Source: Pedobacter faecalis
GTDB taxonomy: Bacteria; Bacteroidota; Bacteroidia; Sphingobacteriales; Sphingobacteriaceae
Assembly (NCBI RefSeq): GCF_030182585.1
Contig: NZ_JARXOW010000001.1
Location: 992,001-1,056,000, forward strand
DNA length: 64,000 nt
Direction of reading: 5' to 3'
Under the pieces are notes generated by a model. It made no database searches. It was not told the DNA's origin and worked only from the letters and a program-made list of their open reading frames with translations. This document shows positions 1,109 through 18,600 of the stretch, one piece after another. The position numbers and the translations under genes were made by a program. Position 1 is the first letter of the stretch. Every line of letters begins with the position of its first letter.

Positions 1109-1123
1109 CAAAAAGTTGTTGGC

Positions 1124-1345: not shown

Positions 1346-1444
1346 TGTTAATAAATTTTAGAGTTATCTGATAATGCAAATTTCCGTACTATTCAGTTCA
1401 GTATTGTTGTGTAATTTCTTGTTTGATTTGTGAGATTTACTGTT

Positions 1445-3856
1445 TTATTTCTTCCACTTCAACCGCAGGCTGTTACTGACCACGCTCACGCTGCTCAATG
1501 CCATTGCCGCACCCGCAATCATCGGGTTGAGCAGGAAGCCGTTAACAGGGTAAAGGATACCTGCCGCTACCGGAATGCCGATTACGTTGTAGATAAACGC
1601 CCAGAACAGGTTTTGCTTGATGGTGGCTACGGTCTGTTTGGACAAACGTATTGCCTGCGGTATTTTGGTCAGGTCGGATGAAATGATGGTCATCTTGGCT
1701 ACGTCCATTGCGATGTCGCTGCCTTTGCCCATTGCGATACTTACATCGGCTGTTGCCAATGCGGTGCTGTCGTTGATACCATCGCCCACCATTGCCACTA
1801 CCTTTCCTTTACTTTGCAGTTCTTTCACAAAGTCGGCTTTGTGCTGTGGCAAAACTTCGGCTTTGTAATGCTTGATGCCTGTCTGCTCCGCAATGGCTTT
1901 AGCGGTAGCTTCATTATCTCCGGTCAGCATATACAGGTCAATGCCCATATCCTGCATTTCCCAGATAGCCTGCACCGATGTTTCCTTAATCTTATCGGCG
2001 ATAGCAATTACAGCAAGAGCCTGTTTGCTGTTTGCAAACCAAATAACGGTTTTGGACTGTTTGCCCCATTCTTCGGCCTGGTCTTGTAATTCGCTGGCAA
2101 TGGCAATGTTGTTTTCTGCCAATAGCTTTTTGTTGCCTACATAATAGGTTTCGTTGTCATGGTCTGCTTTTGCGCCTTTGCCCGTAATGCTGTCGAACAT
2201 GGATAAAGAGGTGGCCGCTACATCGTCAAGATGCTTCACTACGGCTTCTGCCAATGGATGCTCGGATTGCTTTTCGATGCTCAAAAGGACTTCTTTTGCG
2301 GTGACCTCATGGTTCAGCCATTTAATGCCCGTTACCTGTGGTCTTCCCTCGGTGATGGTTCCGGTTTTGTCCAAAACGATGACATTTACTTTTTTGGCCA
2401 GTTCCAAACTTTCGGCATCCTTTATCAAAATGCCATTTTCAGCACCTTTACCAACGCCTACCATAATAGCGGTGGGTGTCGCTAAGCCTAAAGCACAGGG
2501 GCAGGCAATGACCAATACCGTAACGGCTGCCAGCAGACCTTGAACAACCCCGTTTTCGCCTCCCAAAATCAACCATAGTGTAAATGTCAGGATGGCAATA
2601 CCTATCACTGTGGGAACAAAGATGCCCGCAATCCTATCGACCAGTTTCTGTACGGGTGCTTTGCTTCCCTGTGCATCCTGCACCATTTTGATGATGTGGG
2701 CAAGCATGGTTTCTTTGCTCACTTTTACCGCCCTGAACCGGAAGCTGCCTTTTTGGTTAATCGTTCCTGCAAATACTTTTTCTTTTTCTTTTTTCAATAC
2801 AGGTACAGGCTCACCGCTTAACATGCTTTCGTCCACATACGAATTGCCCGATATGACCATACCGTCTACCGCAATCTTTTCACCGGGCTTTACGAGTATC
2901 ACATCACTTGCGCTTACGTCTTCGATAGCGGTCTGCTTTTCCGTTCCGTCCGCCTGTACCACGATGACCGTTTTCGGCTGCAAGCCCATCAGTTTCTTAA
3001 TGGCTGAAGAGGTGTTGCCTTTGGCTCTTTCTTCCAGCAGTTTCCCCAAGAGGATGAATGCGATAATAACGGCTGCCGCTTCAAAATATACGTGGGCGTG
3101 CAGTCCCCGTTGATGCCAAAAGTCGGCAAACAGCATATTGAAAACACTGAACAGGTAGGCAATACCTGTACTCAATGCCACCAGCGTATCCATATTGGCG
3201 GAACGGTGCTTTGCCTGCTTCCAAGCGTTCACAAAAAAATCCCTGCCCAACCATATTACAACGGGTGTGGAAAAGAGCCACATTATCGGGTCTGCATAGG
3301 GCATATCCATAAAGAACATTCCTATGACTACCACGGGCAGGGAAAGGATAATTGCCCAAATGGTCTTGTTTTTCAGGGTTCGGAATTTCTTTTCGTGGAT
3401 GGCTTCGAGCGTTTCCTGCTGCTTGGTTTCGTCTTCAATCAATAGGTCGTAACCTACTCCCTGAAACGCTTTTTGCAGGGTGAAGGCATCGGTCATATTG
3501 GGCAGATATTCTACGGTAAGATTGCCCGTTGCAAAGTTCACGGAAGCATTAACTACTCCCGGTTGGTATTTCACAATGCTTTCGGCACTGCCCGCACAGG
3601 ATGCACAGGTCATGCCCAATACCGGAAAAGCACTTTTAACCGTAGGAATTCCGTAACCTAAATCTTTAATTGCCTTAACAGCCTCGCCTACGGTTTCATT
3701 GCTATCTACTGTAATCGCTGCCCTGCGGTTGTTCAGCTCTACTTTATGGGTTTCTACGCCTTTTACCTGTGCCAATCCCTTTTCAACGATTAATGCACAG
3801 TGTTCGCTTTCTACATCCTCCAATGGAATGTATATATTTTCTCTGTTTGTCGCCAT
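1445..3856 (-). CDS. copA: Copper-translocating P1B-type ATPase CopA
   Basis: An 803-residue P-type ATPase that exports Cu(I). The N-terminus has two HMA-like domains: the first has only one Cys of its metal site (ESEHCALIV), the second is canonical (GMTCASC, about residue 82). Family signatures are all present: the membrane CPC motif (VIACPCALGLATP), phosphorylation site DKTGTITEG, the SEHPLAEAV nucleotide-site motif, MLTGDNEAT and the hinge GDGINDSTAL. The CPC motif and CxxC domain assign it to the copper/silver branch. The ATG at 3856 (MATNREN) is preferred over an in-frame TTG 27 bases upstream. Neighbours are a CopZ chaperone downstream and a broken AraC-type regulator upstream. All catalytic motifs look intact. 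Confidence 0.93.
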   Translation of the reverse strand: MATNRENIYIPLEDVESEHCALIVEKGLAQVKGVETHKVELNNRRAAITVDSNETVGEAVKAIKDLGYGIPTVKSAFPVLGMTCASCAGSAESIVKYQPGVVNASVNFATGNLTVEYLPNMTDAFTLQKAFQGVGYDLLIEDETKQQETLEAIHEKKFRTLKNKTIWAIILSLPVVVIGMFFMDMPYADPIMWLFSTPVVIWLGRDFFVNAWKQAKHRSANMDTLVALSTGIAYLFSVFNMLFADFWHQRGLHAHVYFEAAAVIIAFILLGKLLEERAKGNTSSAIKKLMGLQPKTVIVVQADGTEKQTAIEDVSASDVILVKPGEKIAVDGMVISGNSYVDESMLSGEPVPVLKKEKEKVFAGTINQKGSFRFRAVKVSKETMLAHIIKMVQDAQGSKAPVQKLVDRIAGIFVPTVIGIAILTFTLWLILGGENGVVQGLLAAVTVLVIACPCALGLATPTAIMVGVGKGAENGILIKDAESLELAKKVNVIVLDKTGTITEGRPQVTGIKWLNHEVTAKEVLLSIEKQSEHPLAEAVVKHLDDVAATSLSMFDSITGKGAKADHDNETYYVGNKKLLAENNIAIASELQDQAEEWGKQSKTVIWFANSKQALAVIAIADKIKETSVQAIWEMQDMGIDLYMLTGDNEATAKAIAEQTGIKHYKAEVLPQHKADFVKELQSKGKVVAMVGDGINDSTALATADVSIAMGKGSDIAMDVAKMTIISSDLTKIPQAIRLSKQTVATIKQNLFWAFIYNVIGIPVAAGILYPVNGFLLNPMIAGAAMALSSVSVVSNSLRLKWKK

Positions 3857-3944
3857 ATTTGCCTGCTTTAATTTACAATACAAAATTGGCTATTATATTT
3901 ATGGGTACTGTTGTGAAATTTTGGATTTGATTTGTAAGATTTAC

Positions 3945-4262
3945 TTACACTTTATCCAACGGTTTTCTTTTATCCTCTTTAATCTGTTTGAAATGGCTTG
4001 GTGTTAGCCCGGTAACTTTTTTAAACTGGTTACTCAAATATGCCACGCTCGAATAATTTAGGCGGTTCGCAATCTCACTTAATGACAACTCATCATACAC
4101 CAACAATTCTTTGACTTTCTCCACCTTTTGGGCGATAAAGTATTTTTCAATGGTTGTACCCTCTACCTCTGAAAACAGATTGGACAGGTAATTGTAATCG
4201 TGATGCAATTTGTTGCATATTTCACTCAAAGTGGTCAGCTGATTTCGCTGCAAAGTGGTCAC
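3945..4262 (-). pseudogene. AraC-type regulator, 5' end replaced by an IS end
   Basis: From KLHHDYNYLSNLFSEVEG onward this is the DNA-binding part of an AraC/XylS regulator, with two helix-turn-helix segments (LSEIANRLNYSS and the GLTPSHFKQ end). Related Bacteroidota regulators beside copA are about 190 aa and carry an HMA-like N-terminal domain; that domain is absent here. The first roughly 16 codons (MTTLQRNQLTTLSEI) come from the repeated end of an IS21-like element: TGACCACTTTG occurs twice, 24 bases apart, in the same register. The reading frame stays open by chance, giving a 105-residue chimera. It has most likely lost metal sensing; whether the fragment is expressed or binds DNA is unknown. 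Confidence 0.72.
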
Positions 4263-4647
4263 ATTTTGATTGGCGAAAGAAATTCACTCCAGGGTTCGGC
4301 CGGCCTGGCAAGTTAACAAAGGGTTTTGTCTTGCCTTACAAAGGCACTTATGTTTGCGATTCTAGGGTTGTCTGATCCGTAAGTCCCATCTCCTTGACAC
4401 ACGAACTCAAATAAAGGTCTACAATCGATTTTACAGCACCTTTAGGCTTGTACCCGATGACAATCAGATCCTCTTCTTAGCGGCGCTTAAAAGATATTTT
4501 TCACGCCAGCTTAGGGAGACACCAATCGATAAACTTCTTATCTGCAGGTCAAACGGACCACTTTGCAGCGAAATTGCCTGTCACTATAGTACGGAATAGG
4601 GTGTCAGCATGTTTGCGGAATTCCTGACCAGTTTTGCCGAAATACCC
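4215..4647. mobile_element. IS21-like element remnant with multi-repeat ends
   Basis: A perfect 19-bp inverted repeat (4242-4260 and 4556-4574; GACCACTTTGCAGCGAAAT read outward on each side) bounds about 300 bases. Each arm belongs to a short series of degenerate 23-24 bp units: two on the left (minus strand from 4261 and 4237) and four on the right beginning at 4555/4556, 4579, 4602 and 4625. Several outward repeats per end are typical of the IS21 family. No istA or istB is present; the interior holds only unrecognised frame-broken stretches, for example minus-strand phases around 4380-4560. I read it as an internally deleted remnant. The outer boundaries are approximate and no target duplication was identified. 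Confidence 0.6.
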
Positions 4648-4990
4648 AGGTTGAAATTATTGCATGCAATTAAATAGTCCAATTTGTCAGTTTTGTCAAT
4701 TTTTCCAACTCATCTTTTTCCTTGATCTTCCCGCGTAGAGAGGCCAGCGACATCAAATCGCGTATGAAATCGCTCGACATCACAACGTCCTTCCACCCTT
4801 TATGGGGCAAAGTCTTTTAAGGAGATTTTGCCCTATTTTTTTGGTTTTAAAGAATTGTTTTGGGGTTGGTTAGCTTGGTGGGTCTGTCTAGTTTCGTAGC
4901 TCGACACTCCCCGTCTTATGAAGTACAACAACCTTCTACGTGTCTATATCAATTGAGATTGCGAATGATTTTGAACCGACCAACTTTGTT
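4648..4990. other. Gene-poor junction between copper cluster and RNA-repair island
   Basis: No convincing gene. One minus-strand ORF of 36 codons (4670-4780, starting MSSDFIRDLMSLASL, Lys/Glu-rich) may be the tail of a lost gene. A terminator-like hairpin is at 4804-4842. The rest, up to the WYL gene's stop, shows nothing I can identify. The stretch looks like decayed DNA left after insertion and deletion events. Confidence 0.45.
4804..4842 (+). terminator. Hairpin with T-tract
   Basis: GGGGCAAAGTC and GATTTTGCCC pair around a short AT-rich loop, followed by ATTTTTTT. It has the shape of a rho-independent terminator for plus-strand transcription, but no intact plus-strand gene precedes it, so it may be a leftover of a lost gene. 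Confidence 0.45.
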
Positions 4991-6025
4991 TTACTGAAAT
5001 GAATAAGGTTTGGGCTCATCATAATTCCCTAACGCCTTAGCCAGATTTTCCCTCATTTGCTTAACCAATATCCTTGGCCTGATCACTTTAATTTTTGAAC
5101 CAAAGCCTAACAACTCACGTTCAAGCTCAAAGTTCAGGATCACCTTGATGCTAAATATTTTACCCCCGTCTTCCTCTGCTAAAAGTTTCTGTGTATGATG
5201 CAATGGTTTTGTGATGATATAGGGGGCATTGGCATCATCTATCCAAAATACCACTTCACAATCTCGTTGACCTGGTGATTTGGTTACCCCAATCACATCA
5301 CTATAATACGTGGCCAGATCTATGAGATTATTTTCACGGTAAGCGTCCTCATGCAACTCGATGGCTTGGATTCGGTCCAATGCCAGGTTCAGCAGGTTTC
5401 CGCCGCGACCATGCCGCTGTCCTAAAACAAACCAACGATTTCGATATTCTTTTAGCAAATAACCACTGAAGCAAAATGTACTGGCATCCCTCGCTTTGAA
5501 AGATCTGTAGGTAACGCAAATTGTTTTTTTTGACACAATCGCCTTACGGATTACTTCAATGTATTCAAGCCCTTTCAGATGATCGTTCTTTTCAAAGTCA
5601 ACCACCGGCGAATTATGGGTCTTTTGTGAGTATATTTTATCTTCCAGTTTACTTACCATCTCGGTCAGATCGCTGAAATGATCAAAGCCTTTAAACTGTT
5701 TTAACAAGCCAGATACCTCGCTCAGAACATGCATATCCTGCGAACTAATTGGACTGTTCGTGATGCTATAATTCTTGTCAGCGTAAGCATAATATTTTTT
5801 ATCAACCACAACAATTGGCGCTTCGTAACCCAACTTATTACTGCGCATCATCTCAATATCCGCCTGCACCGAACGCCGGCTGACACCTTTTTCAATGCCT
5901 TCAAATTCATACAAGGCATCGGAGCAAGCTTCGATCAGGTCGTCGAGTGTCCACTTACGGTAACGGTTCTGTAGGCAGTTATCTATAGTACGGTAGCGGA
6001 TAAGGGCGTTACGGTTGACAGGCAT
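4991..6025 (-). CDS. HTH-WYL transcriptional regulator of the RNA-repair operon
   Basis: A 344-residue protein with an N-terminal winged-helix segment (residues about 8-85, with RRSVQADIEMMR as recognition helix) and a WYL domain at about residues 155-240 (KKTICVTYRSF, then RNRWFVLGQRHGRGG, the position that gives WYL domains their name). A WCX-like C-terminal extension follows. WYL proteins sense ligands, often nucleic acid or nucleotide, and control stress or phage-defence genes. It is divergent from hen1, and its ATG is about 170 bases from the hen1 start; the region between carries a tandem TGCGCA site. Control of the repair operon is inferred from this arrangement. Confidence 0.85.
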   Translation of the reverse strand: MPVNRNALIRYRTIDNCLQNRYRKWTLDDLIEACSDALYEFEGIEKGVSRRSVQADIEMMRSNKLGYEAPIVVVDKKYYAYADKNYSITNSPISSQDMHVLSEVSGLLKQFKGFDHFSDLTEMVSKLEDKIYSQKTHNSPVVDFEKNDHLKGLEYIEVIRKAIVSKKTICVTYRSFKARDASTFCFSGYLLKEYRNRWFVLGQRHGRGGNLLNLALDRIQAIELHEDAYRENNLIDLATYYSDVIGVTKSPGQRDCEVVFWIDDANAPYIITKPLHHTQKLLAEEDGGKIFSIKVILNFELERELLGFGSKIKVIRPRILVKQMRENLAKALGNYDEPKPYSFQ

Positions 6026-6069
6026 ATGCGGCGGTTGAGAATATTTTATAAATATTAAAAATATTTTTC

Positions 6070-6090
6070 ACTGCGCAAAAAGACTGCGCA
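6070..6090. promoter_or_regulatory. Tandem TGCGCA operator candidate between WYL gene and hen1
   Basis: ACTGCGCA occurs at 6070-6077 and again at 6083-6090, spaced 13 bases start to start; each copy contains the palindrome TGCGCA. An AT-rich palindrome (AAATATT-AAA-AATATTT, 6050-6066) is just to the left. The site lies in the divergent intergenic region, so it could bind the WYL regulator and affect both promoters. A weak -7-like AACCTTTG follows it toward hen1. Confidence 0.45.
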
Positions 6091-6196
6091 CTGAGTCCCA
6101 ACCTTTGTATAGTTGCAAGCGTGCATTGCCATTAAAGAGGGGAAATGTGCGCTCAAGTCAGCAGAATAATTATATTAAACCTTTCAATCAATAACT

Positions 6197-7627
6197 ATGT
6201 TACTTACCATAACCACCACACATACTCCGGCCGCTGATTTAAGCTATCTGCTGCATAAACATCCCGCTAAGATTCAGTCGGTCGATCTATCTGCCGGAAA
6301 GGCACACATTTTCTACCCGGAGGTAAGTGCAGAGAAATGTACTGCTGCTTTATTGCTCGACATCGACCCGGTTGGGTTGGTGCGAAGCGCAGGCCCGCAG
6401 GGTAATGATTTTGCATTAGAGCAATATGTGAACGACCGCCCCTATGTATGTAGTTCGTTTATGAGTGCCGCTATTGCCAAAGCATATTCGTCTGCATTAA
6501 ACGGAAGATGCAAAGATAAACCGGAACTGGTTGACGTAGCTATGCCTTTTGTGGTCAAACTTTCCGTATTACCGGTACGCGGCGGAGATACTCTTTTAAG
6601 ATCTTTATTCGAGCCGCTGGGTTATGCTGTTAATGCAACGCAGCATCAGCTTAACCCAGCTTTTCCAGAGTGGGGCATTAGTCGATACTTTACGGTCGAA
6701 CTCAGTAATCAGATCACCTTGCAGCAATTGCTGTCACATTTGTATGTACTCATTCCGGTTTGCGATAATGACAAGCATTACTGGGTATCGAAAGATGAGA
6801 TCGAAAAGCTGTTAAACAAAGGGAAGGACTGGCTGGATGAGCATCCCGCAAAGGAATTGATCGTTCGCCGTTATCTTAAAAATCAGCATTCTCTGGCTAA
6901 TAAAGCTTTCGAAGTGCTATTCAGTAAAGAAGCGACCGATGAAGATGTAGAAGAAGCAGTAATAGGAAACGAAAATAGCGTAGAAACGGAGATACCCAAA
7001 TTGCGTATACATGACCAGCGATTGCAGGCTGCAAGGGATGAGTTTCTGTCTGCCGGTGTTAAATCTGTAGCCGACCTAGGTTGCGGCGAGGGCAGGCTGC
7101 TGAGACTCTTACTGGCTGAAAAGCAGTTTGAAATGATACTGGGCATGGATGTGAGTTACCGCTCATTAGAGATCGCCCAAGAACGTCTGAAGCTTGATCG
7201 ACTGCCTGAAAAACAACGCCAAAGAATTCAACTGATACAGGGCTCATTAACTTATAGTGATAAACGGCTGGAAGGCTTCGATGGCGCAGCATTAGTAGAA
7301 GTGATCGAACACCTGGATGAATCGCGTTTAGCTGCGTTAGAACGTTCAGTTTTTGACTACGCAAAGCCGGAGATGATCGTAGTAACTACGCCTAATGCCG
7401 AATATAACGTAAAGTTTGAAAATTTTGAAGAAGGCAAAATGCGCCATACCGACCACCGTTTCGAATGGACACGAAAAGAATTTGAAGGCTGGGCAACGGA
7501 TATATCGGTCCGTTATAGCTATAATGTGATTTTCAAACCTATTGGCGATGTCGACCCGGAAGTAGGTGCACTAAGCCAGATGGCAGTATTTAGTCGGGCG
7601 TCAAAAAATGCAGAAGAATTGGTATAA
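6197..7627 (+). CDS. hen1: 3'-terminal RNA ribose 2'-O-methyltransferase Hen1
   Basis: A 476-residue bacterial Hen1. Residues 1 to about 240 form the Hen1 N-terminal (ligase-activating) region. The C-terminal half is an S-adenosylmethionine methyltransferase: SAM-binding VADLGCGEGRLL near 290, EVIEHLDESRL near 370 and HTDHRFEWTRKEF near 420, which supply the Glu/His metal ligands typical of Hen1. In the known bacterial system it methylates the 2'-OH at the 3' end of cleaved RNA before Pnkp seals it, so the repaired site resists the same ribotoxin. It heads the operon, with pnkp starting 18 bases after its stop. Length and motifs are complete. Confidence 0.93.
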   Translation: MLLTITTTHTPAADLSYLLHKHPAKIQSVDLSAGKAHIFYPEVSAEKCTAALLLDIDPVGLVRSAGPQGNDFALEQYVNDRPYVCSSFMSAAIAKAYSSALNGRCKDKPELVDVAMPFVVKLSVLPVRGGDTLLRSLFEPLGYAVNATQHQLNPAFPEWGISRYFTVELSNQITLQQLLSHLYVLIPVCDNDKHYWVSKDEIEKLLNKGKDWLDEHPAKELIVRRYLKNQHSLANKAFEVLFSKEATDEDVEEAVIGNENSVETEIPKLRIHDQRLQAARDEFLSAGVKSVADLGCGEGRLLRLLLAEKQFEMILGMDVSYRSLEIAQERLKLDRLPEKQRQRIQLIQGSLTYSDKRLEGFDGAALVEVIEHLDESRLAALERSVFDYAKPEMIVVTTPNAEYNVKFENFEEGKMRHTDHRFEWTRKEFEGWATDISVRYSYNVIFKPIGDVDPEVGALSQMAVFSRASKNAEELV

Positions 7628-7645
7628 GCTTTAGAATCAAAAAAA

Positions 7646-10207
7646 ATGTTAACTAGTAAAAATATACAAATACCAGAACTATCATTAGTGGTATTGATAG
7701 GGGCAACTGGCTCTGGAAAGTCATCATTTGCGCGCAAGCATTTCAAGGCTACTGAGATCGTATCTTCTGACGTTTGCCGCAGCATAGTAAGCGACGACGA
7801 AAATAATCAGGCAGCATCTGCCGATGCCTTTGCTCTTGCGAGGTACATAACCGGCATGCGTTTGAAGAACGGTTTGCTGACTGTGATCGATGCGACGAAT
7901 GTACAGGAAGAAGCCCGTAAAGACTGGATAAACCTGGCGCGCGAATATCATTGCCTGCCAGTAGCGATCATACTGAATATGCCTGAGAAAGTTTGTGCAC
8001 AGCGCAACGCATTACGGTCAGATCGAAACTTTGGCGCTCACGTACTTCCGCAGCATATTTCACAGTTGAAACGTAGTTTTAAAAAACTGAAGTATGAAGG
8101 CTTCCGCCAGATCATCGAGTTGCGTTCGCCTGAGGAAGTTGAGGCCATAACCGGCATTACCCGCGATCCGCTTTACAATAACAAAAAGCAAGAGAATGGA
8201 CCATTCGACATCATTGGCGACGTGCACGGCTGTTTTGATGAGCTGATAGAATTATTAGCAAAACTTGGCTATACGAATAATACCGGCACATGGGCACACC
8301 CTGATGGCAGAAAAGCTGTTTTCGTTGGCGATCTGGTTGACCGCGGGCCTAAAACGCCTGATGTTCTTAAACTGGTGATGTCAATGACCGCATCGGGCAA
8401 TGCTTATTGTGTACCGGGAAACCACGACGTTAAATTAATGCGTTGGTTGAATGGCAAAAACGTCCAAGCCAAGCACGGATTACAGGAATCAATAGATCAA
8501 TTGAATTTGGAAACACCTGAATTCAGGGAAGCAGTAAGGAAGTTTATAGATGGTCTTATCAGTCATTATGTTTTTGACGATGGTAAGCTGGTCGTATCCC
8601 ATGCCGGTTTAAAGCAGAGCATGCAGGGACGCGGCTCCGGTGCTGTTCGTGAGTTTTGTCTGTATGGGGAAACCACTGGTGAGATCGATGAATTCGGGTT
8701 GCCGGTTCGTTTGAACTGGGCTGCCGAGTATAAAGGCAAAGCTATGGTCGTTTATGGCCATACGCCTGTACCGCAGGCACAATGGCTAAACAATACCATT
8801 GATATTGATACCGGCTGTGTATTTGGGGGCTCGCTAACAGCTTTGCGTTATCCGGAACGAGAACTGGTTTCAGTTAAAGCTGCAAAAGTATATTGTGAGC
8901 CGGTAAGGCCTTTGAATCATGGCCATCAGACAACTGGGAATCTAACCATTCAACAGGAAAGTGATCATGTGCTCGATATTGCTGACTTTACCGGGAAACA
9001 GATCGTGGAAACGCGCTTAGGCAATAACATTACCATTCGGGAAGAAAACGCTATTGCTGCATTAGAAGTGATGAGTCGTTTTGCGGTAAACCCTAAGTGG
9101 TTGATATATCTGCCACCGACCATGAGCCCGTCGAAAACAAGTATCCTAGACGATTACCTGGAATTCCCAACCGAAGCATTTGAATATTACAAAGCTGCCG
9201 GTATCAATCGTGTGGTATGCCAGGAAAAGCATATGGGATCGAGAGCAGTAGTCATCGTCGGTAAAGACGAGGGCGCCATCAGTAAGGCATTTGGCATCAC
9301 CAGCGAAGGAATCGGAACGATTTATACCCGTACCGGTCGGGCTTTTTTTAATGATAAGGAAACCGAGCAGGCTTTATTGCACAGATTAAATACCGCACTG
9401 GATAATTCAGGCTTTTATGAAAAGTTCAACACCGATTGGGTTTGCCTGGATGCCGAACTAATGCCCTGGAGCGCTAAAGCGCAAGCATTGCTGCAAACAC
9501 AGTATGCCTCGGTTGGGAGTGCGGCCACCCATGCTTTAAATGATGTAAACGCAGCGTTGGAACAACTAACACAAAGAGACGCCAATGGAGCGGCTTTGTT
9601 AACTGAATACAGTGAAAGGGCACAGGAAGCAAAACAGTTTATAGCTGCTTACCAGCAATACTGTTGGCCGGTAAATGGCCTTGATGATTATAAGCTGGCA
9701 CCGTTCCATATCCTTGCATCTGAAGGAAAGCTTTGGACGAGTGAAACTCACGAATGGCACATGGAGCAGATAAAAAATATCTGCTCGGCTGATCCGGCCA
9801 TACTGTTGGCAACCCCATACAAGGTAGTCGACCTGGATAACGAAACCAGCATCGGAGATGCAACCTCCTGGTGGTTGGAATTAACCGGTAAAGGCGGCGA
9901 GGGCATGGTGGTAAAGCCTCACAATTTCATCGAAAAAGATGGAAAAGGATTAATTCAACCGGCTATAAAGATTAGGGGGCGAGAATATCTGCGCATTATC
10001 TATGGCCCGGAGTATACGGCTCCCGATAACATGGTGCGCCTGAAACAACGTGGATTGAATGCCAAACGCAGCATGGCCATGCGCGAGTTTGCCCTTGGTA
10101 TAGAGGGTTTACAACGCTTTACCGATAAGGAGCCGTTGAGGCGCGTACATCAGTGTGTATTTGGTGTACTGGCTATGGAAAGTGAGCCGGTTGACCCACG
10201 ATTATAA
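7646..10207 (+). CDS. pnkp: Polynucleotide kinase-phosphatase Pnkp (RNA end-healing and sealing enzyme)
   Basis: An 853-residue three-domain enzyme. Residues 1 to about 170: 5'-kinase with P-loop GATGSGKSSF. Residues about 180-410: calcineurin-type phosphatase with GDVHGCFDEL, GDLVDRGP, GNHD and YGHTP. Residues about 450-853: ligase-type nucleotidyltransferase with the adenylated lysine in EKHMGSRA and a late KGGEGMVVKP motif. The family phosphorylates 5'-OH ends, removes 3' or 2',3'-cyclic phosphates and, together with Hen1, seals RNA. All key motifs are intact. Its TAA is immediately followed by the ATG of the next gene, so translation is probably coupled. Confidence 0.95.
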   Translation: MLTSKNIQIPELSLVVLIGATGSGKSSFARKHFKATEIVSSDVCRSIVSDDENNQAASADAFALARYITGMRLKNGLLTVIDATNVQEEARKDWINLAREYHCLPVAIILNMPEKVCAQRNALRSDRNFGAHVLPQHISQLKRSFKKLKYEGFRQIIELRSPEEVEAITGITRDPLYNNKKQENGPFDIIGDVHGCFDELIELLAKLGYTNNTGTWAHPDGRKAVFVGDLVDRGPKTPDVLKLVMSMTASGNAYCVPGNHDVKLMRWLNGKNVQAKHGLQESIDQLNLETPEFREAVRKFIDGLISHYVFDDGKLVVSHAGLKQSMQGRGSGAVREFCLYGETTGEIDEFGLPVRLNWAAEYKGKAMVVYGHTPVPQAQWLNNTIDIDTGCVFGGSLTALRYPERELVSVKAAKVYCEPVRPLNHGHQTTGNLTIQQESDHVLDIADFTGKQIVETRLGNNITIREENAIAALEVMSRFAVNPKWLIYLPPTMSPSKTSILDDYLEFPTEAFEYYKAAGINRVVCQEKHMGSRAVVIVGKDEGAISKAFGITSEGIGTIYTRTGRAFFNDKETEQALLHRLNTALDNSGFYEKFNTDWVCLDAELMPWSAKAQALLQTQYASVGSAATHALNDVNAALEQLTQRDANGAALLTEYSERAQEAKQFIAAYQQYCWPVNGLDDYKLAPFHILASEGKLWTSETHEWHMEQIKNICSADPAILLATPYKVVDLDNETSIGDATSWWLELTGKGGEGMVVKPHNFIEKDGKGLIQPAIKIRGREYLRIIYGPEYTAPDNMVRLKQRGLNAKRSMAMREFALGIEGLQRFTDKEPLRRVHQCVFGVLAMESEPVDPRL

Positions 10208-10975
10208 ATGAAAACGAACATGAAAGAAATTATCCTGCAAAAACTGCTAGAACTGGAGCAGAATGAAAATATAAAAATACTGTACGCCTGCGAGTCGGGC
10301 AGCCGGGCCTGGGGCTTTGCTTCGCCGGATAGCGACTTTGACGTTCGTTTCATTTATACCCGAAATATTGACTATTACCTCAGTATAGCCGATTCAACAG
10401 ATGTGCTTGGCTTGCCTGTTAACGAAGTGCTGGACATTGGCGGCTGGGATATCAAAAAGGCGCTTAAGCTGTTCCTAAAATCGAATGCTCCCTTGTATGA
10501 GTGGCTGCAGTCGCCGATCATCTATCGCCAGGATATGGCTTTTGTTATGGAACTTAGTAGCCTGATGCCGGTATATTTTTCACCACGGTCTGCCGCTAAC
10601 CATTATTTATCAATGGCAACCAATACGCTCCGCGATGATCTGCAAGCAGAACAGGTGAAGCTAAAGCGCTATTTTTATGCGTTACGCCCGGCCTTGGCTT
10701 GCCTGTGGATCATAGAAAAGCAAGGCGTACCGCCGATGGAATTTAAGCCGCTTCGCGCGCTAATAACTGATGAAGTGATACAAGCGCATATCAGCAGATT
10801 GTCGGACAGGAAAAAGGATGCCAATGAGAAAGCTTTTATAGAGCGTGTTATAGAGCTAAATGATTGGCTGACCCAGACAGTCGAATATTGCAGAGGAAAG
10901 TTGCCGTTATTACCGTCAGTTAGAAAAGATACTTTAGAACTGGATGGTGTTTTTAGAAAATACCTGCTGCCATGA
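10208..10975 (+). CDS. Pol-beta-superfamily nucleotidyltransferase (RlaP-like), first copy
   Basis: A 255-residue protein with the nucleotidyltransferase signature GSRAWGFASPDSDFDVRFIY at about residues 27-46: GS followed by DxD supplies the metal-binding acids. The rest is a helical region. It matches the RNA-repair pol-beta family (Pfam RlaP) described alongside Pnkp/Hen1 systems, where it is predicted to add or trim nucleotides at damaged RNA ends. It starts with no gap after pnkp and overlaps the second nucleotidyltransferase by 4 bases. The biochemical activity is inferred; substrate and nucleotide are unknown. Confidence 0.82.
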   Translation: MKTNMKEIILQKLLELEQNENIKILYACESGSRAWGFASPDSDFDVRFIYTRNIDYYLSIADSTDVLGLPVNEVLDIGGWDIKKALKLFLKSNAPLYEWLQSPIIYRQDMAFVMELSSLMPVYFSPRSAANHYLSMATNTLRDDLQAEQVKLKRYFYALRPALACLWIIEKQGVPPMEFKPLRALITDEVIQAHISRLSDRKKDANEKAFIERVIELNDWLTQTVEYCRGKLPLLPSVRKDTLELDGVFRKYLLP

Positions 10976-12039
10976 CATTTGAAGAACTAAAAAAACATAA
11001 AGAACTGGTTCTGCTGGACTGTATAAGCGGCAGCACTGCTTACAATCTTAATGTTAAAGGATCAGACGTGGATAAGAAAGGTGTTTTCATCATGCCCCAG
11101 AATCAGTTGTACGGATTTGAGCGCCAGGAACAAATAGCTAACGATACAAATGATGAGGTATATTTTGAGATCGGCCGTTTTTTAGAGTTACTAACCAAGA
11201 ACAATCCTAATATCCTCGAATTGCTGGCCACGCCCAATGAGTTTGTGCTGTGCCGCCACCCGGTAATCGATTTGATCAAACCGACAGATTTCCTATCAAA
11301 GCTTTGTTTGGACACCTTTGCGGGGTATGCACAAACACAAATAAAAAAAGCACGCGGCCTAAACAAGAAGATCAATAAACCACTCGATGCCGAAAGAAAA
11401 TCGGTACTGGATTTCTGTTATGTGATTTACAATAATGGCAGCATTTCTCTTACAGAATGGCTGAAGGAAAGCAACTATAATCAAAATGAATGCGGATTGA
11501 CAACCGTAGATCATTTTCGAAGCACTTATCTCCTTTATCATAAAAAACAATTAAAAAACGATGCGTATTTCAGAGGAATTGTTTCAGGTCCGGATGCAGA
11601 TGATGTACAGCTAAGTCCGGTACCTAAAGGCTTGGAACCGTTGGCTGTTATGAACTTTAATAAAGACGGCTATTCGGTTTATTGCAAAGAATATCGCGAG
11701 TATCGCGAATGGGAGGAAAAGCGCAATCAGTTGCGCTATCAAAGCACCTTATCGCACGGCAAGAGTTACGATGCTAAGAACATGATGCACACCTTCCGGT
11801 TACTTACAATGGCGGAAGAAATAGCGCTTCATAAGGAAGTGATAGTTTACCGGAATGATCGCGATCATTTATTAAAAATCCGGAAGGGCGAGTTTCAATT
11901 TGAGGAATTGATGGAGATGGTGGAAGAAAAAATGGAGAATATTAAAGTTCTTTATGATAAATCTCAATTGCCCGACCGACCAGATGTGAAATTTGCAGAA
12001 AACATCTTGATACAAATACGGATGCAGATTTATAGGTAG
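10972..12039 (+). CDS. Pol-beta-superfamily nucleotidyltransferase (RlaP-like), second copy
   Basis: A 355-residue protein with a related but distinct signature: ISGSTAYNLNVKGSDVDKKGVF at the N-terminus, again GS then DxD. It is 100 residues longer than the first copy and diverged from it, so this is a functional pair rather than a recent duplication. Its ATG overlaps the stop of the previous gene (ATGA). The C-terminal half is helical and Lys/Glu-rich, with a conserved-looking SHGKSYDAKNMMHTFRLL. It is the last gene of the operon. Likely role: modification of RNA ends with Pnkp/Hen1; direct evidence is lacking. Confidence 0.8.
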   Translation: MTFEELKKHKELVLLDCISGSTAYNLNVKGSDVDKKGVFIMPQNQLYGFERQEQIANDTNDEVYFEIGRFLELLTKNNPNILELLATPNEFVLCRHPVIDLIKPTDFLSKLCLDTFAGYAQTQIKKARGLNKKINKPLDAERKSVLDFCYVIYNNGSISLTEWLKESNYNQNECGLTTVDHFRSTYLLYHKKQLKNDAYFRGIVSGPDADDVQLSPVPKGLEPLAVMNFNKDGYSVYCKEYREYREWEEKRNQLRYQSTLSHGKSYDAKNMMHTFRLLTMAEEIALHKEVIVYRNDRDHLLKIRKGEFQFEELMEMVEEKMENIKVLYDKSQLPDRPDVKFAENILIQIRMQIYR

Positions 12040-12515
12040 TCTTTTAAATTATTTACCTTTTAGAACGAAACTATCTTTACTACTAGAGAGAGTTTTATAA
12101 GGAATGGATAATTCTCTACTAGAAATAAACGGGTCGAAATAAAATGCATGCAAAGAAATCGGAATATTCTTCCATGCCAATAGTGTATAACCGGTAGTTA
12201 ACTTTAATGGTTTTGTTTATGCCCAAAATAGGTAGTCGTTTTGAGCTATTTGGCAGACTGATTCAACTCAAAAATCCCTGGATTCATATTTAGTCCCCTT
12301 TTTATATATTTCCATGTATCCACACCCCGCCGAAACACGCGAAATAGTCTATACGTTTGTAGGAGACGATCAATAACACCGAAATTATTATCAAGGCTTC
12401 CTACAGCAACCAAACCGATCGGGAAACTCGTTGACTGAGTAAAACAGGCGAGTCTGCCTGCCTTCGATGAAACTTGTCAGGTACTGGGCGAAATCATAAA
12501 GTAAACCAATAAAAA

Positions 12516-12550
12516 GATAACCCCCTGTCGCGTAGTCGGCCGGGGGTTAT
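12516..12550. terminator. Strong GC hairpin
   Basis: ATAACCCCC and GGGGGTTAT form a 9-10 bp stem around a 16-base loop. It sits about 480 bases after the last RNA-repair gene. There is no long T-tract on either side, so it may be a terminator or another structured element. Confidence 0.45.
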
Positions 12551-12646
12551 TCACAATAAGCCATAAGGGCTGGTCCTCATCTGGTATAATAACATAGTTT
12601 CTACATATTAACTTGATAATAAGTCGATAATTAAAAGAACTTTAAA

Positions 12647-12734
12647 ATATCCTTGACATATCCTTGGCATATCAAATAGATATATCAACGATACACCAAG
12701 GATATATCAACGATATACCAAGGATATACCAACC
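12647..12734. repeat. 8 x 11 bp palindromic tandem repeat, copy 1
   Basis: Eight consecutive 11-bp units, without gaps. The first two read ATATCCTTGAC and ATATCCTTGGC; unit three (ATATCAAATAG) is the turning point; units four to eight read like ATATATCAACG and ATATACCAAGG, roughly the reverse complement of the first two. The array therefore folds back on itself. A second copy of the same eight-unit design is at 56285-56372 in the opposite orientation, with similar AT-rich flanks. Confidence 0.85.
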
Positions 12735-12921
12735 CTCTATTTATTATGTAATTATTACCTATAAATTATCTATTTAATAGCATCTTGGTGTACACCGTTT
12801 AAGATGAATTTTTCTCTAAATCATAATTGCTGTTGCAGCGGGTACAGTTTGGTAGACTAAGGAATAAACTTAGTGATCGAAATGATGTTAATTCTGTACT
12901 ATATCCGGTCCAGGATTAGCG

Positions 12922-13941
12922 CTAAGTGCGGATGCTAATCACCGACTCCCTCATCAACTCCTCTGCATCTCTGACCATTTGCGCTGAACCTATAAAAATG
13001 GCCGACCGCTGGTGCAATTCTGTAGGTTCAATTTCCAAAATCCGGTTAAAGCCATCACTGGCCACTCCCCCTGCCTGTTCGACAATAAAAGCCATTGGGT
13101 TACATTCATAAAGCAACCTGAGTTTGCCTTTTGGCGAAGCCGCTGTAGTGGGATAAATATAGATTCCACCTTTAATGAGGTTTCGGTGAACATCAGCGAC
13201 CATGGAGCCTATATAGCGTGATGTGTATGGCCTGTTGGTTTGTTTATCTTCCGTTTGGGCGTACTTCAGGTACTTTTTTACACCCTCCGGAAAGTGAACG
13301 TAATTGCCTTCGTTTAAGGAATAGATATTTCCGGACTCCGGGGTTTTCATATTGGGGTGCGACAGGCAGAATTCGCCGATGGAGGGATCTAAGGTGAATC
13401 CGTTGACGCCTTTGCCCGTGGTGTATACCAGCATAGTTGATGAGCCATAAATCACATAACCGGCGGCTACCTGCTCGGTTCCTTTTTGCAGTACGTCTTC
13501 TATGGTAGCTGCTCCGCCATAGGATTTCCTTCTGTATATGGAAAATATGGTGCCCACAGCCACGTTACAATCGATATTCGAGGAGCCGTCGAGCGGATCG
13601 ATACATACGATATACTTCGCGTTTTTCGATACTGGCGAGTCTATAGGAACAAGATCATCCTCTTCTTCGGTGGCTACTACGCAGCACTCGCCGCCGCTGG
13701 TTAGTGCGCTGATGAACTGTGTGTTGGCAAACACGTCGAGTTTTTGCTGGCCCTCCCCTTGTATATTCATGGTGCCAGCGGAGCCCAGAATATCTGCCAG
13801 GCCAGCTTTATTGACCTCCCGGTTCACGATTTTTGCGGCAATGCCGATATCCCTGAGTAGTCTTGATAATTCGCCTTTTGCGTATGGAAAATCTGCCTGT
13901 TTTTCGATGATAAACTGACCCAGTGTTTTGATGCCCGACAT
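12922..13941 (-). CDS. fbp: Class 1 fructose-1,6-bisphosphatase
   Basis: A 339-residue enzyme of gluconeogenesis that hydrolyses fructose-1,6-bisphosphate to fructose-6-phosphate. The metal site is clear: ATEEEDD near residue 90 and the signature [17 protein letters not shown] near 114-130; the substrate-binding region includes [12 protein letters not shown] and the helix around [15 protein letters not shown]. Length matches the class 1 family. It heads a run of minus-strand housekeeping genes but is probably transcribed on its own; the phosphoesterase gene lies 21 bases upstream on the same strand, so read-through is possible. Confidence 0.95.
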
Positions 13942-13962
13942 ATACTTAGTGTACTTAATACG

Positions 13963-14454
13963 TTATCTTTTGCCTATTTCTATGGCGGCTAAGTTATGTA
14001 TTTTTCCATCTGTGATACAGAATTTGATCAGTGTTTTTACTTTATGCCATCCAGAATTTCCGGCAGCACCTGGGTTTATATGCAAGCAATCTATTTTTTT
14101 GTCGTAGATAACTTTTAAAATGTGTGAGTGACCAGATATGAATAATCCCGGAGGCTTAGTGTATATTATACGCTTTACTTCGGGTGCATATTTATCCGGA
14201 TACCCACCGATATGTGTCATCCATACATCGAGCCCTTCTATCTGAAAGCGAAGATGCTCGGGGTACACAGCCCTGATGTCTTTGCCGTCTATGTTTCCGT
14301 ATACTCCGCGCAGTGGTTTGAAGTTGGCAAGTGGCCCGGCTACCTCTGCCCCGAAATCTCCGGCGTGCCATATTTCATCGCAGTCGGCAAAGTGTTTATA
14401 AACGGCATCATCTAAATGATCGTGTGTATCGGAAAGCAGGCCTATGGTTACCAT
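13963..14454 (-). CDS. YfcE/MJ0936-type metallophosphoesterase
   Basis: A 163-residue calcineurin-like phosphoesterase. Metal-ligand motifs appear in order: LLSDTHDHLDD at the N-terminus, HAGDFG, YGNIDGKD, MTHIGGYPDKY and GHSHILK. Small enzymes of this type hydrolyse phosphodiester or phosphomonoester bonds; the natural substrate is unknown. No signal peptide, so it acts in the cytoplasm. It lies between fbp and trmN6, on the same strand as both, and may share a transcript with them. Confidence 0.9.
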   Translation of the reverse strand: MVTIGLLSDTHDHLDDAVYKHFADCDEIWHAGDFGAEVAGPLANFKPLRGVYGNIDGKDIRAVYPEHLRFQIEGLDVWMTHIGGYPDKYAPEVKRIIYTKPPGLFISGHSHILKVIYDKKIDCLHINPGAAGNSGWHKVKTLIKFCITDGKIHNLAAIEIGKR

Positions 14455-14491
14455 ACTGCAAATCTATGGTTTTGGCTGGCATACGCTTAAC

Positions 14492-15196
14492 TTAAAATGC
14501 CAGGAAGAAATCTTTGAGCAGGCGGCGATACGCTTCGGTGTGAACACCTTCCCTTTCATAGATATAGAAATGTTCGGTCTTTACTTCTTCCTGCGTATGT
14601 CCTAAAACAATAATTTGTCGGATAACGGGCTTGTTCTCATCAGAACTGATGTCGATACGCCTTTGAAGATGCAAGCCGTAAACTGGTGCCTGGTCTTTAA
14701 TAAAACGCGCCTGCTTTACGGGCAAAATGAGCCACATGCTGCCGCCTGGGGCAAGTAACGCAGAGGCTTTCTGAAGGAGCGCAATGAAGAAACTATGATC
14801 CGTATGCCGGGCCACGCGTTTACGCGCTTCGAGGTTCTTAAGATCATCAACAAAATAAGGCGGGTTAGATACGATCAGATCGTAACGTGTTTCGGTTTCA
14901 TAGCTGGCGATATCGGCATGATGAGCTTTTAGTCGGGCTGAGAACGGAGATGAGGCAAAATTTAAGCCGGCTGTCTGAGCAGCTTGCGCATCAATCTCTA
15001 CAGCGTCTACGCTGGCGTAGGGAAAGCGCTGGGCAAGCATCATGGCGATTACCCCGGTTCCGGTGCCGATATCGAGAATCGTACCTGCATTTTCCTGCAT
15101 GGCAGTGGCGCCGAGCAATACACCATCGGTGTTGATCTTCATGGCGCAGCCGGATTGGTCGACCGCAAACTGTTTGAACCTGAATACCCCCTTCAT
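14492..15196 (-). CDS. trmN6: tRNA1(Val) (adenine37-N6)-methyltransferase
   Basis: A 234-residue class I SAM methyltransferase. It begins with the family-typical FRFKQFAVDQSGCAMKINTD, has the SAM-binding LDIGTGTGVIAMML near residue 42 and the N6-adenine catalytic motif SNPPYF near 110. The E. coli homologue (YfiC/TrmN6) methylates N6 of A37 in tRNA-Val. Length and motif order match. It sits about 12 bases after the VOC gene on the same strand, so the two are probably co-transcribed. Confidence 0.9.
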   Translation of the reverse strand: MKGVFRFKQFAVDQSGCAMKINTDGVLLGATAMQENAGTILDIGTGTGVIAMMLAQRFPYASVDAVEIDAQAAQTAGLNFASSPFSARLKAHHADIASYETETRYDLIVSNPPYFVDDLKNLEARKRVARHTDHSFFIALLQKASALLAPGGSMWLILPVKQARFIKDQAPVYGLHLQRRIDISSDENKPVIRQIIVLGHTQEEVKTEHFYIYEREGVHTEAYRRLLKDFFLAF

Positions 15197-15207
15197 GTCA
15201 GGTACGG

Positions 15208-15591
15208 TCAGGATTCGTAAAGTTCGAGCGGAAGGCCGTCGGGATCACTGAAAAAGGTAAAGCGCTTGCCGGTAAATTCATCCACGCGCACCGGTTCGGT
15301 CTCAATGCCAAGGGCGTTAAGTCGTGTTATCTCCGCCGCCAGATCATCTACTTTAAAAGCCAGATGCCTTAAACCCGCAGCTTCGGGCCGGGATGGTCTC
15401 GGTGGCGGATTTTCGAAGGAAAAAAGCTCTATAACGTATTCGCCGTTCAGCGAAAGATCGAGTTTGTATGACTTACGTTCCACCCGATATGCTTCTGCCT
15501 GTATGTCGAAGCCGAGCTTATTTACGTAGAAGTCTTTAGACCGCTCATAATTTGAACAAATAATGGCAATATGATGGATACCTTTGAGCAT
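15208..15591 (-). CDS. VOC-family protein (glyoxalase-like, YaeR type)
   Basis: A 127-residue single vicinal-oxygen-chelate domain protein (MLKGIHHIAIICSNYERSKDFYVNKLGF... ending FSDPDGLPLELYE). Likely metal ligands are the His in GIHHIA, the Glu in YVIELFSF, the His in LRHLAFKV and the final Glu. It resembles the YaeR/SMU1112c branch rather than proven glyoxalase I, so the substrate is unknown. The ATG at 15591 is chosen because the upstream in-frame start is TTG and the fold begins at LKGIHH. It is divergent from purL. Confidence 0.82.
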   Translation of the reverse strand: MLKGIHHIAIICSNYERSKDFYVNKLGFDIQAEAYRVERKSYKLDLSLNGEYVIELFSFENPPPRPSRPEAAGLRHLAFKVDDLAAEITRLNALGIETEPVRVDEFTGKRFTFFSDPDGLPLELYES

Positions 15592-15600
15592 ATCGGGTTT

Positions 15601-15629
15601 TTTGTTTGGCAAATTTAACCGTAGATTTG
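15601..15629 (+). promoter_or_regulatory. purL promoter (Bacteroidota type)
   Basis: A perfect -7 element TAGATTTG (15622-15629) with an upstream TTTG at 15601-15604, 17 bases apart, slightly short of the usual 19. It ends 18 bases before the purL ATG. Confidence 0.65.
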
Positions 15630-15647
15630 CACTTTCATAAATAGAGC

Positions 15648-18600
15648 ATGATTTATTTCTTTCTGAGTCAGTCCGACACCGTTTACGCTTTACAAACAGA
15701 ACGGGAACTTACCTCCATTGATATCAACAAACTTGAATGGCTTTTTGGCGGAGCCAGTGTACAAAAGGAAAGCCAACTGGAGGGCTATTTTGTTGGCCCG
15801 AGAGCAGCAATGATCACCCCATGGAGCACGAATGCTGTGGAGATCACTCAGAACATGGATATCAGCGGAATTATCCGGATTGAGGAGTTTAAGAAAGTAG
15901 GCCAGGGCTTTGCGGATTTTGACCCTATGCTCTCACAGAAATATGAGGGACTGGATCAGGAGATCTATACCATTAATATACAACCTGAGCCTGTGATTGA
16001 CATCACCGATATCGCGGCTTACAACAAGCAGGAAGGCCTCTCGCTGAGTGATGAGGAGGTGGAATACCTGAATGACCTCTCGGCACGTCTTGGGCGACCG
16101 CTGACTGACTCTGAGGTATTCGGATTCTCTCAGGTGAACTCTGAACACTGCCGCCATAAAATATTCAACGGCAGGTTTATCATTGACGGTGAAGAGAAGC
16201 CTGTTTCACTTTTCAAGCTCATCCGTAAAACTTCAGAGGAGAACCCGAACGATATCGTATCGGCTTATAAAGACAATGTGGCTTTTATTAAAGGCCCGGT
16301 AGTGCAGCAGTTTGCGCCCAGAAGGGCTGATGTGCCCGATTATTACGCGACAAGCGAATTTGAGTCGGTTATATCCATAAAGGCGGAAACGCACAACTTC
16401 CCAACTACGGTTGAGCCTTTTAACGGCGCGGCTACCGGATCGGGTGGTGAGATACGGGACAGGCTGGCCGGCGGGCAGGGTGCTTTACCTTTGGCCGGTA
16501 CTGCGGTGTATATGACGGCGCTATCGAGGCTTAGCGACGATCGCCCTTGGGAGCGTGGCGTTGAAGAAAGACAGTGGCTGTATCAAACGCCAATGGATAT
16601 TCTGATCAAGGCTTCAAATGGTGCTACCGACTTTGGAAATAAGTTCGGTCAGCCCCTGATTACGGGCTCGGTGCTGACTTTCGAACATGAGGAAGCTGGC
16701 CGTAAACTTGGCTATGATAAAGTAATTATGCTGGCTGGCGGCGTTGGATACGGCAAAGCAAGTCAGGCTAAAAAACATACGCCGGCACCGGGCGACAAAA
16801 TTGTTGTGCTTGGCGGCGAAAACTACCGTATTGGTATGGGTGGCGCGGCGGTATCCTCTGCAGATACTGGCGAGCATGGAACCGGCATTGAGCTGAACGC
16901 TATACAGCGTTCGAACCCGGAAATGCAGAAACGTGCGGCCAATGCGGTTAGGGCTATGGTAGAAAGTGATAACAATACGATCGTTTCTATCCATGATCAT
17001 GGTGCGGGTGGGCACTTAAACTGTCTTTCTGAACTGGTGGAAGAGACTGGCGGAAAGATTGATCTGGATAAGCTGCCGGTGGGCGACCCTACCCTTTCGG
17101 CTAAAGAGATCATCGGCAACGAATCTCAGGAGCGTATGGGACTGGTGATCAGCCAGGAGCATATAGACACGCTGCAAAAAATCGCCGACCGTGAGCGTGC
17201 CCCGATGTATACTGTGGGTACGGTTACGGGAGATCATCGTTTCACGTTTGAATCGGAAACCACTGGCGCGAAGCCAATGGATCTCGAATTAAAAGATATG
17301 TTTGGCAGCTCGCCTAAGTTTATCATGGACGACCGGAGAGTGGCTAGAACTTATGAGGGCCTGTCGTACGACGCAGAAAGATTCAACGAATACCTGGAGC
17401 AGGTGCTGCAACTTGAAGCTGTGGCATGTAAGGATTGGCTGACCAATAAGGTAGATCGTTGTGTGGGCGGCCGGGTGGCCAAACAGCAGTGCGCCGGTCC
17501 CTTGCAACTGCCGTTAAACAACTGCGGTGTAATGGCCCTGGATTTTAAAGGTAAAGAGGGTATTGCGACTTCAGTTGGCCATGCGCCTCTTTCAGCGCTG
17601 ATCGATGCCGCAGCAGGAAGCCGAAACGCGGTGGCTGAATCTTTGTCTAACATTGTTTGGGCACCTTTGAAAGATGGCCTGAAAAGCGTATCGCTTTCGG
17701 CAAATTGGATGTGGGCTTGTAAAAACGAGGGCGAGGACGCACGCTTATATGATGCAGTGCAGGCTTGTTCTGACTTTGCAATTAGCCTGGGAATCAACAT
17801 CCCTACCGGGAAGGATTCACTCTCAATGAAGCAGAAATACAAGAATGACGAGGTTATTGCACCAGGAACCGTAATCATTTCTGCCGGCGGAAATTGTAAT
17901 GACATCACCAAGGTAGTGGAGCCGGTGTTCCAGAAAGAGGAAGGGTCGGTTTATTATATCAACCTTTCGTCTGACGACTACAAACTAGGCGGTTCTTCTT
18001 TTGCCCAGATTTTGAACAGGATTGGCAATGAAACGCCTGACGTAAAGGACGCGGCACAATTTAAACTGGCCTTCAATGCGATACAACAACTTATTAAAGG
18101 CGACTTCATACAGGCTGGTCACGATGTAGGCAGTGGTGGTCTGATCACTACCCTGCTGGAACTTTGCTTTGCCGACCGTGATCTGGGTGCTGATCTGGAC
18201 CTTTCTGCGATTGGTGAGAAAGACCTGATCAAGCTGTTGTTTGCTGAGAACATAGGTATTGTTTTCCAGGCCGCATTGGGCAGGGAGACAGAAATTGAAG
18301 ACACGTTAAATAATGAAGGCGTAAGCTTTTATAAACTAGGCAGGGTAAGCAACGAGCCGGTACTTAAGATCACTGCAGGTGCACATACGCTGAATCTGGA
18401 TGTGGATCATCTGCGGGATGTGTGGTTTAAAACTTCATACCTGCTTGATCAAAAACAGAGCGGCCCAGTAAAAGCGAAAGAGCGTTTCGACAATTATAAA
18501 CATCAGCCGCTTAAATATAGCTTCCCGGCACAGTTTGACGGTAAAAAACCAGTTATTGCTCAGGATGCTGTGCGACCTAAGGCGGCAATCATCCGCGAGA

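Follow-up and report, generated by a model that had tools for sequence, protein, structure and literature searches.

Within a 64,000-nucleotide stretch of the Pedobacter faecalis genome (contig NZ_JARXOW010000001.1, positions 992,001 to 1,056,000; hereafter the window), we analysed a five-gene RNA-repair locus and the palindrome that accompanies its regulatory gene. On the minus strand, positions 4991–6025 encode a transcription regulator with WYL and WCX domains (Pfam, 41.7 and 44.1 bits). It is divergent from four plus-strand genes: Hen1 (6197–7627), a 3′-terminal RNA ribose 2′-O-methyltransferase with a ligase-associating N-domain; Pnkp (7646–10207), which joins polynucleotide kinase, metallophosphatase and RNA ligase in one chain; and two pol-beta-type nucleotidyltransferases, RlaP1 (10208–10975, likely start 10220) and RlaP2 (10972–12039), the second with an insert between its nucleotidyltransferase and helical parts. 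The five open reading frames listed in an earlier note on this DNA were all reproduced, as were the tight gaps of 18, 0 and −4 bases among the plus-strand genes, which likely form one transcription unit. In the database version of RlaP1 and most of its listed homologues, the protein is 251 amino acids long, 4 residues shorter at the N terminus, and the second gap is then 12. Between the WYL gene and Hen1, 44 bp ahead of the WYL start codon, lies a palindromic candidate operator of 23 bp (6070–6092, no strand), ACTGCGCA-AAAAGAC-TGCGCACT, one mismatch from the motif ACTrCGCA-n7-TGCGyAGT with its 8-bp arms and 7-bp spacer. Eleven bases past the palindrome on the Hen1 side is a TTTG (6104–6107, plus strand), which we take to be a Bacteroidota −7-type promoter box. 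Scans for sigma-70-type promoters and for terminators gave a signal indistinct from that of shuffled sequence, and all 5 matches in an Rfam scan of window positions 4000–13000 were sub-threshold.

Profile and structure searches of the five proteins confirmed their families: WYL with WCX, Hen1, Pnkp and, twice, RlaP. The Hen1, Pnkp and RlaP scores are far above curated cut-offs (TIGR04074, 340; TIGR04075, 750; PF10127, 23 bits), and the WYL and WCX scores are about twice their own. Hen1 scores 703 bits with TIGR04074 and 363 bits with Hen1_L, its N- and C-terminal domains match solved structures (PDB relatives 4dqz and 3jwh), and its motifs lie at residues 293, 368 and 416. Pnkp scores 1409 bits with TIGR04075 over residues 6–853. 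Its phosphatase and ligase motifs are kept when aligned to solved domain structures, solved kinase chains match over residues 6–169, and the P-loop and other motif residues are invariant in a four-sequence alignment. A check for inactive residues thus upheld the earlier claim that Pnkp and Hen1 retain their catalytic motifs, and the Hen1-Pnkp repair operon is, at the level of sequence, intact. Together the two proteins heal RNA ends, methylate them and close the break (PMC4411300, in part), and RNA repair of this kind with 2′-O-methyl capping is already published. The window matches the known bacterial Pnkp-Hen1 complex in its full-length Pnkp, its Hen1 with a ligase-associating N-domain, the adjacency of the two genes and their conserved active sites, but adds the WYL regulator, the palindromic candidate operator and the two RlaP genes. 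PADLOC assigned the five genes to no complete system, returning only generic WYL models (best E 8.4e-23) and cross-matches to Cas3c, mad2, mad3 and HEase. The sole anticodon-nuclease family searched, PF13166 (AAA_13), which PrrC/RloC-type nucleases match, had no match in the window's genome.

Both nucleotidyltransferases match the RlaP family (PF10127) and keep its GS...DxD...D/E residues; the window differs in holding two diverged paralogues as a cassette. RlaP1 scores 267.7 bits and RlaP2 72.5 bits, the latter match being confined to residues 8–127, the nucleotidyltransferase part. Of the 39 family rows aligned for RlaP1, all keep G31, D43, D45 and D76 and 36 keep S32; of the 40 aligned for RlaP2, 39 keep G20, S21, D32 and D34 and all keep E66. 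Judged by these alignments, both proteins retain a complete GS, DxD and third carboxylate set, presumably the residues expected of an active pol-beta-type enzyme. AlphaFold2 models had mean confidence scores (predicted local distance difference test) of 93.6 for RlaP1 and 89.8 for RlaP2. A PDB sequence search found no relative of either protein (best E 0.094, two more at 0.81–0.86), and Foldseek gave nothing at E ≤ 0.001 for the RlaP2 model. HalB of the Hailong system is among the nearest solved folds of RlaP1 and heads the second-look list for RlaP2; sequence identity over the aligned residues is 9–14%, and the neighbours here are Hen1 and Pnkp. Two side observations concern these genes. In genomes G024, G013 and G527 the RlaP1 gene is interrupted or split and the second nucleotidyltransferase gene is still open, and in Acidobacteriota the pair occurs in reversed order near Hen1-Pnkp (L053, 7268–8996; L072, 13543–15323).

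The palindrome recurs across loci in close association with this WYL family. With up to 2 mismatches, 45 sites were found in 29 of 101 loci; the counts at ≤0, ≤1 and ≤2 mismatches were 5, 29 and 45, against means of 0, 0.05 and 1.8 in 20 first-order Markov simulations. Every one of the 23 WYL loci has the palindrome no more than 400 bp ahead of the WYL start; among 78 loci without a WYL gene, 6 have it. Among these six, it stands just before Hen1 in L014 and L088, at the 5′ end of the called Hen1 open reading frame in L013, about 620 bp before Hen1 in L022 and before an interrupted RlaP1 in L124; the site in L043 is probably due to chance. No site with ≤3 mismatches was found in the stretch searched upstream of RlaP1 in L122 and L123. 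A TTTG falls exactly 11 or 12 bases past the palindrome at 50 of 80 sites (26 and 25 instances on the two sides), where simple arithmetic predicts about 1. These 80 sites come from 121 loci, of which 20 (L191–L210) were picked for holding sites and are not an independent sample. Across 119 genomes of the window's genus, counts summed by hand gave 78 sites with ≤1 mismatch, spread over 54 genomes, compared with 6 when the pattern was reversed. Of 30 sites fetched, counting that of the window, 23 had a WYL gene within 1.5 kb. In its own genome the window palindrome is the sole site with ≤1 mismatch. At ≤3 mismatches that genome has 26 sites against 34 for the reversed control, and since such sites show no excess, only the window site counts there. 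As a separate observation, many slipin-RtcB loci have two palindromes at a distance of 111–113 bp; in loci such as L128, L132, L192 and L194 the distance is 111–112 bp and both copies stand in the stretch separating the WYL gene from the operon.

The N-terminal DNA-binding part of the WYL protein would, by inference, be a winged helix-turn-helix; a PDB sequence search with this protein found no relative at E 0.01. Its first 86 residues are 62–67% identical to those of WYL proteins from slipin- or TROVE-RtcB-type loci (L130, L128, L139), and the remainder is 31–48% identical. Taken together, the conservation of the palindrome, its adjacency to WYL genes, the spacing to TTTG and the conserved DNA-binding part make the WYL protein its probable reader. 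The suggestion that this protein regulates the operon gains support from the palindrome conserved beside WYL genes, and it very probably controls Hen1-Pnkp. The palindrome might instead be the site of another regulator, or a structural promoter element that the WYL gene merely adjoins. WYL binding is a prediction, and sites with the same spacing stand at the WYL-less genes of L199, L200, L203 and L206, but the contrast between 23/23 and 6/78 loci, the persistence of the palindrome across changes of ligase, partner genes and species, and the adjacency of the one good site in the window's genome to the WYL gene make this alternative improbable. With the WYL protein as reader, the shared candidate operator names a regulator, gives a base-by-base prediction of where it binds and, through the sites in 54 of 119 genus genomes, predicts members of its regulon.

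Some sites point to genes of other kinds. In six of the twenty loci picked for their sites (L199, L200, L201, L202, L203 and L206), no WYL gene adjoins the site. In L199 the site (7927) precedes an uncharacterised two-gene unit, in L200 (7824) an uncharacterised protein of 316 amino acids, in L206 (7948) a TPR protein, and in L202 (8122) and L203 (8224) DUF5677 proteins; TTTG lies at 11 bases in L199, L200, L203 and L206. The genes at the L199, L200, L202, L203 and L206 sites had no PADLOC match, and we regard them as candidate extra members of the regulon.

The operons beside the palindrome differ in their sealing enzyme. In the best 80 of 580 confirmed Pnkp stretches, RlaP1 occurs in 21, RlaP2 in 21, both in 17 and this WYL family in 6; the full five-gene set occurs in 4 (Desertivirga L015 and L024, Agaribacillus L027 and Mucilaginibacter OK283 L045). 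An RlaP-family match is present in 32 of the 119 genus genomes and a Pnkp ligase match in 1, the window's genome. When RlaP loci were fetched from 20 of the 31 other RlaP-bearing genomes, 16 had a divergent WYL gene, followed by slipin (13) or TROVE (3), RlaP1, RlaP2 and RtcB, and Pfam confirmed RtcB, Band_7 and TROVE on example proteins. Three more hold the pair with no ligase or WYL gene beside it (RlaP1 interrupted in one), and the last has RlaP1 alone. By gene order, RlaP1-RlaP2 is a separate cassette that occurs with either ligase.

In a WYL tree of 37 rows the window protein falls in a 7-row clade (support 99/96) composed of 3 Hen1-Pnkp rows (window, L028, L045) and 4 RtcB-TROVE rows of the window's genus (L197, L198, L204, L207), the latter weakly grouped within it (94/74). 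This exchange of ligases inside one close clade is visible only in the wider, 37-row set. L045 (1913–13826) holds WYL, RtcB, Hen1, Pnkp, RlaP1 and RlaP2, with a palindrome before each of its two transcription units, and by its gene content is a hybrid of both repair types. Eight further loci (L191–L196, L209, L210) have WYL, palindrome, RtcB and slipin, with TROVE also in L209, and no RlaP; their genomes (G003, G007, G517, G530, G483, G011, G032 and G523) lie outside the 32 with an RlaP match. Ligase exchange within a close WYL clade and WYL loci without RlaP together indicate a constant regulator and site, accompanied by a ligase and RlaP that can be swapped or left out. The recurrence of the palindrome before chemically different repair operons suggests that one regulator type runs interchangeable repair kits. 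The RlaP-less loci also bear on another reading, that the RlaP pair makes a Hailong-like oligonucleotide signal read by the WYL protein. A possible likeness of the pair to the HalB fold brings it to mind, but these eight loci keep WYL, palindrome, slipin or TROVE, and RtcB in genomes that have no RlaP, RlaP2 has no Foldseek match at the threshold given above, and likeness of fold is not function; we hold such a signal to be very unlikely.

A different history, in which the ligase was recently swapped around an unchanged WYL-RlaP core throughout the genus, was considered and rejected. The WYL trees separate the slipin/TROVE-RtcB type from the Pnkp type (RtcB-linked rows 100/100), and the listed part of the RlaP1 tree likewise separates them (RtcB-linked 99/100). 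RlaP2 gives another picture: the RtcB rows of its tree require 2 changes and come together as a single group in 6% of the bootstrap replicates, and 20 rows, the Bacteroidota Pnkp-linked proteins and the three lone pairs, make up one clade (99/99).

Our favoured interpretation, which we hold with reasonable though not full confidence, is that the locus is an RNA-repair operon, probably acquired horizontally, under a dedicated WYL regulator, in a system where regulator and site are constant, sealing is exchangeable and RlaP is optional. In this model a WYL dimer would occupy the palindrome, at the place expected for the −33 promoter element. Its WYL/WCX part would bind a ligand of broken nucleic acid, most likely broken RNA, and transcription of the operon would change and be switched on. 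Pnkp would then phosphorylate the 5′-OH end and remove the 3′-phosphate or cyclic phosphate, Hen1 would methylate the terminal 2′-OH, and the ligase domain of Pnkp would seal with Hen1 as its activator. The RlaP pair would serve as template-independent terminal nucleotidyltransferases extending 3′ ends that had lost bases. The analogy behind broken RNA as proposed ligand is with RtcR, a reader of 5′ tRNA halves (portions of PMC7790460), and with PafBC and DriD, readers of single-stranded DNA (portions of PMC11804915); in the latter account, as far as those portions go, PafBC was not activated by the single-stranded RNA tested.

Several points weigh against this interpretation. Within the same best 80 of 580 Pnkp loci, 69 have no palindrome, some on short contigs; the palindrome is in 11 and the WYL family in the 6 already counted, and the Hymenobacter loci among the 80 have neither. 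The window's own genome carries a second ligase, RtcB (C1:1890346–1891410), outside WYL and palindrome control: the sites nearest to it, at ≤3 mismatches, are more than 80 kb off, so the Hen1-Pnkp operon and its WYL gene appear to be the only members of the local regulon. The palindrome could serve another factor, the WYL protein being a candidate for binding it. By analogy, repressor and activator fit equally well as the role of the WYL protein; BrxR is a repressor (PMC9122601, in part) and PafBC an activator (PMC11804915, in part). Finally, the pairing of RlaP with RtcB misfits simple gap filling before sealing, and the chemistry of RlaP is itself a prediction.

This last point requires a closer look at the ends involved. 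RtcB is not known to join 3′-OH ends such as a nucleotide-adding enzyme leaves. Since RtcB joins 5′-OH to cyclic-phosphate ends (PMC7790460, in part), adding bases that leave a 3′-OH just before RtcB would be self-defeating, a consideration that speaks against plain gap filling as put forward in the earlier note and in the literature. It is possible, though we think it unlikely, that the RlaP pair acts on other ends, for example tRNA 3′ termini, or nucleotidylates another target, and for that reason fits both Pnkp and RtcB. The pair stands beside RtcB in 16 of 20 fetched genus loci, where an extended 3′-OH would be no substrate, and 3 of the 20 have it with neither ligase nor WYL adjoining. 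Against this, the published prediction for RlaP, which has it restoring nucleotides alongside RNA ligases, is founded on its association with ligases (PMC7824862, section 3.4.9). In addition HalB, one of the nearest solved folds, comes from the Hailong system, whose production of linear DNA oligomers (PMC12657230, in part) fits terminal addition to nucleic acid. The earlier note had both nucleotidyltransferases rebuilding lost 3′ nucleotides in one Pnkp circuit; their pol-beta-type families hold, but a single Pnkp circuit is doubtful, RlaP lying mostly beside RtcB in the genus, and the nucleotide-restoring idea proves not to be new. The same pair adjoins ligases that need opposite end chemistries, and this makes the role of RlaP testable.

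Titles and abstract openings in the literature searched, which has few subscription papers, showed nothing on the palindrome or on a WYL regulon joining RtcB and Hen1-Pnkp operons; Burroughs and Aravind (2016), reportedly the original source of the nucleotide-restoring prediction, may already describe the WYL neighbours. The nearest counterpart is the proteobacterial rsr-yrlBA-rtcBA operon under RtcR control (PMC7790460, in part). The two share a divergent ligand-binding regulator beside an RNA-repair operon and, in the sister operons found here, RtcB, TROVE/Ro and YrlA-like RNAs, but a WYL protein replaces the CARF/sigma-54 activator and the ligase is exchangeable with Hen1-Pnkp. The window regulator has Pfam WYL and WCX only and no CARF or sigma-54 activator domains; by analogy it works like RtcR and is not a member of the RtcR type. 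It also resembles BrxR, CapW, PafBC and DriD, WYL regulators of defence and DNA damage, in having an inverted-repeat site nearby, as described for BrxR (PMC9122601, in part). The targets here differ in being RNA-repair operons, and the BrxR site has 11-bp arms and a 5-bp spacer, against 8 and 7 bp here. A wider proposal, which we advance tentatively and without claiming that the balance favours it, is a WYL-based counterpart of RtcR in Bacteroidota: a portable RNA-damage regulon of one regulator family and one 23-bp operator, with interchangeable sealing (Hen1-Pnkp, RtcB-slipin, or RtcB-TROVE-Y RNA) and an optional RlaP1-RlaP2, reaching to DUF5677 proteins, the TPR protein and the two-gene unit, in which the WYL protein would sense broken RNA. 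These last genes may provide further RNA-damage or defence functions.

RNAs resembling tRNA and YrlA were seen in RtcB-type loci, between palindrome and slipin or between TROVE and RlaP1 (L132, 6667–6778; L128, 6916–7030; L191, 8859–8955; L130, 7674–8017; L134, 10053–10266; L141, 9675–9895). Their YrlA scores are below gathering. With the tRNA model, 5 of the 6 loci attain the gathering score of 29, L130 scoring 26.2. ARAGORN found no tRNA in L122–L141.

The Hen1-Pnkp operon sits beside an edge of conserved chromosome (12483–12938, no strand). Against a genome of the same species, synteny holds at 92.1% over window positions 12483–12894 and 95.6% over 12938–25499, but positions 1–12308 have no counterpart in the 40 kb fetched from it (matches longer than 80 bases listed). 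That genome, 95% complete, was searched for the Pnkp ligase, RlaP and the palindrome at ≤1 mismatch, and has a match to none of the three. To the left of the operon, copper genes are accompanied by an RteC protein (PF09357) and, close to tRNA-His, a transposase gene of the Mutator family. The lost synteny and these left-hand genes indicate that the region holding the operon is, on sequence comparison, variable and probably mobile. The repair genes could then be passengers of a variable copper-resistance region, with no active stress response. The copper, RteC and transposase genes, the divergence of the same-species genome at this place and the breakage of related RlaP1 genes in some genus genomes speak for such a view, but none of the five window genes is broken and the conservation of promoter box and palindrome extends across families, and we give it little credence beside a regulated repair operon. 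In a sample of the phylum, a Pnkp ligase match occurs in 9 of 395 genomes: 4 full-length and strong (the window included), 1 split in two and 4 weak (72–84 bits).

Copper-handling genes occupy window positions 549–3883 and L146 positions 12644–19997, and the same-species genome has other genes at the matching place. Pfam identified the P-type ATPase of the window and a multicopper oxidase; a second ATPase and small proteins were recognised by eye. A short array of 11-base tandem repeats spans positions 12679–12733, in the gap that separates RlaP2 from the fructose-bisphosphatase gene.

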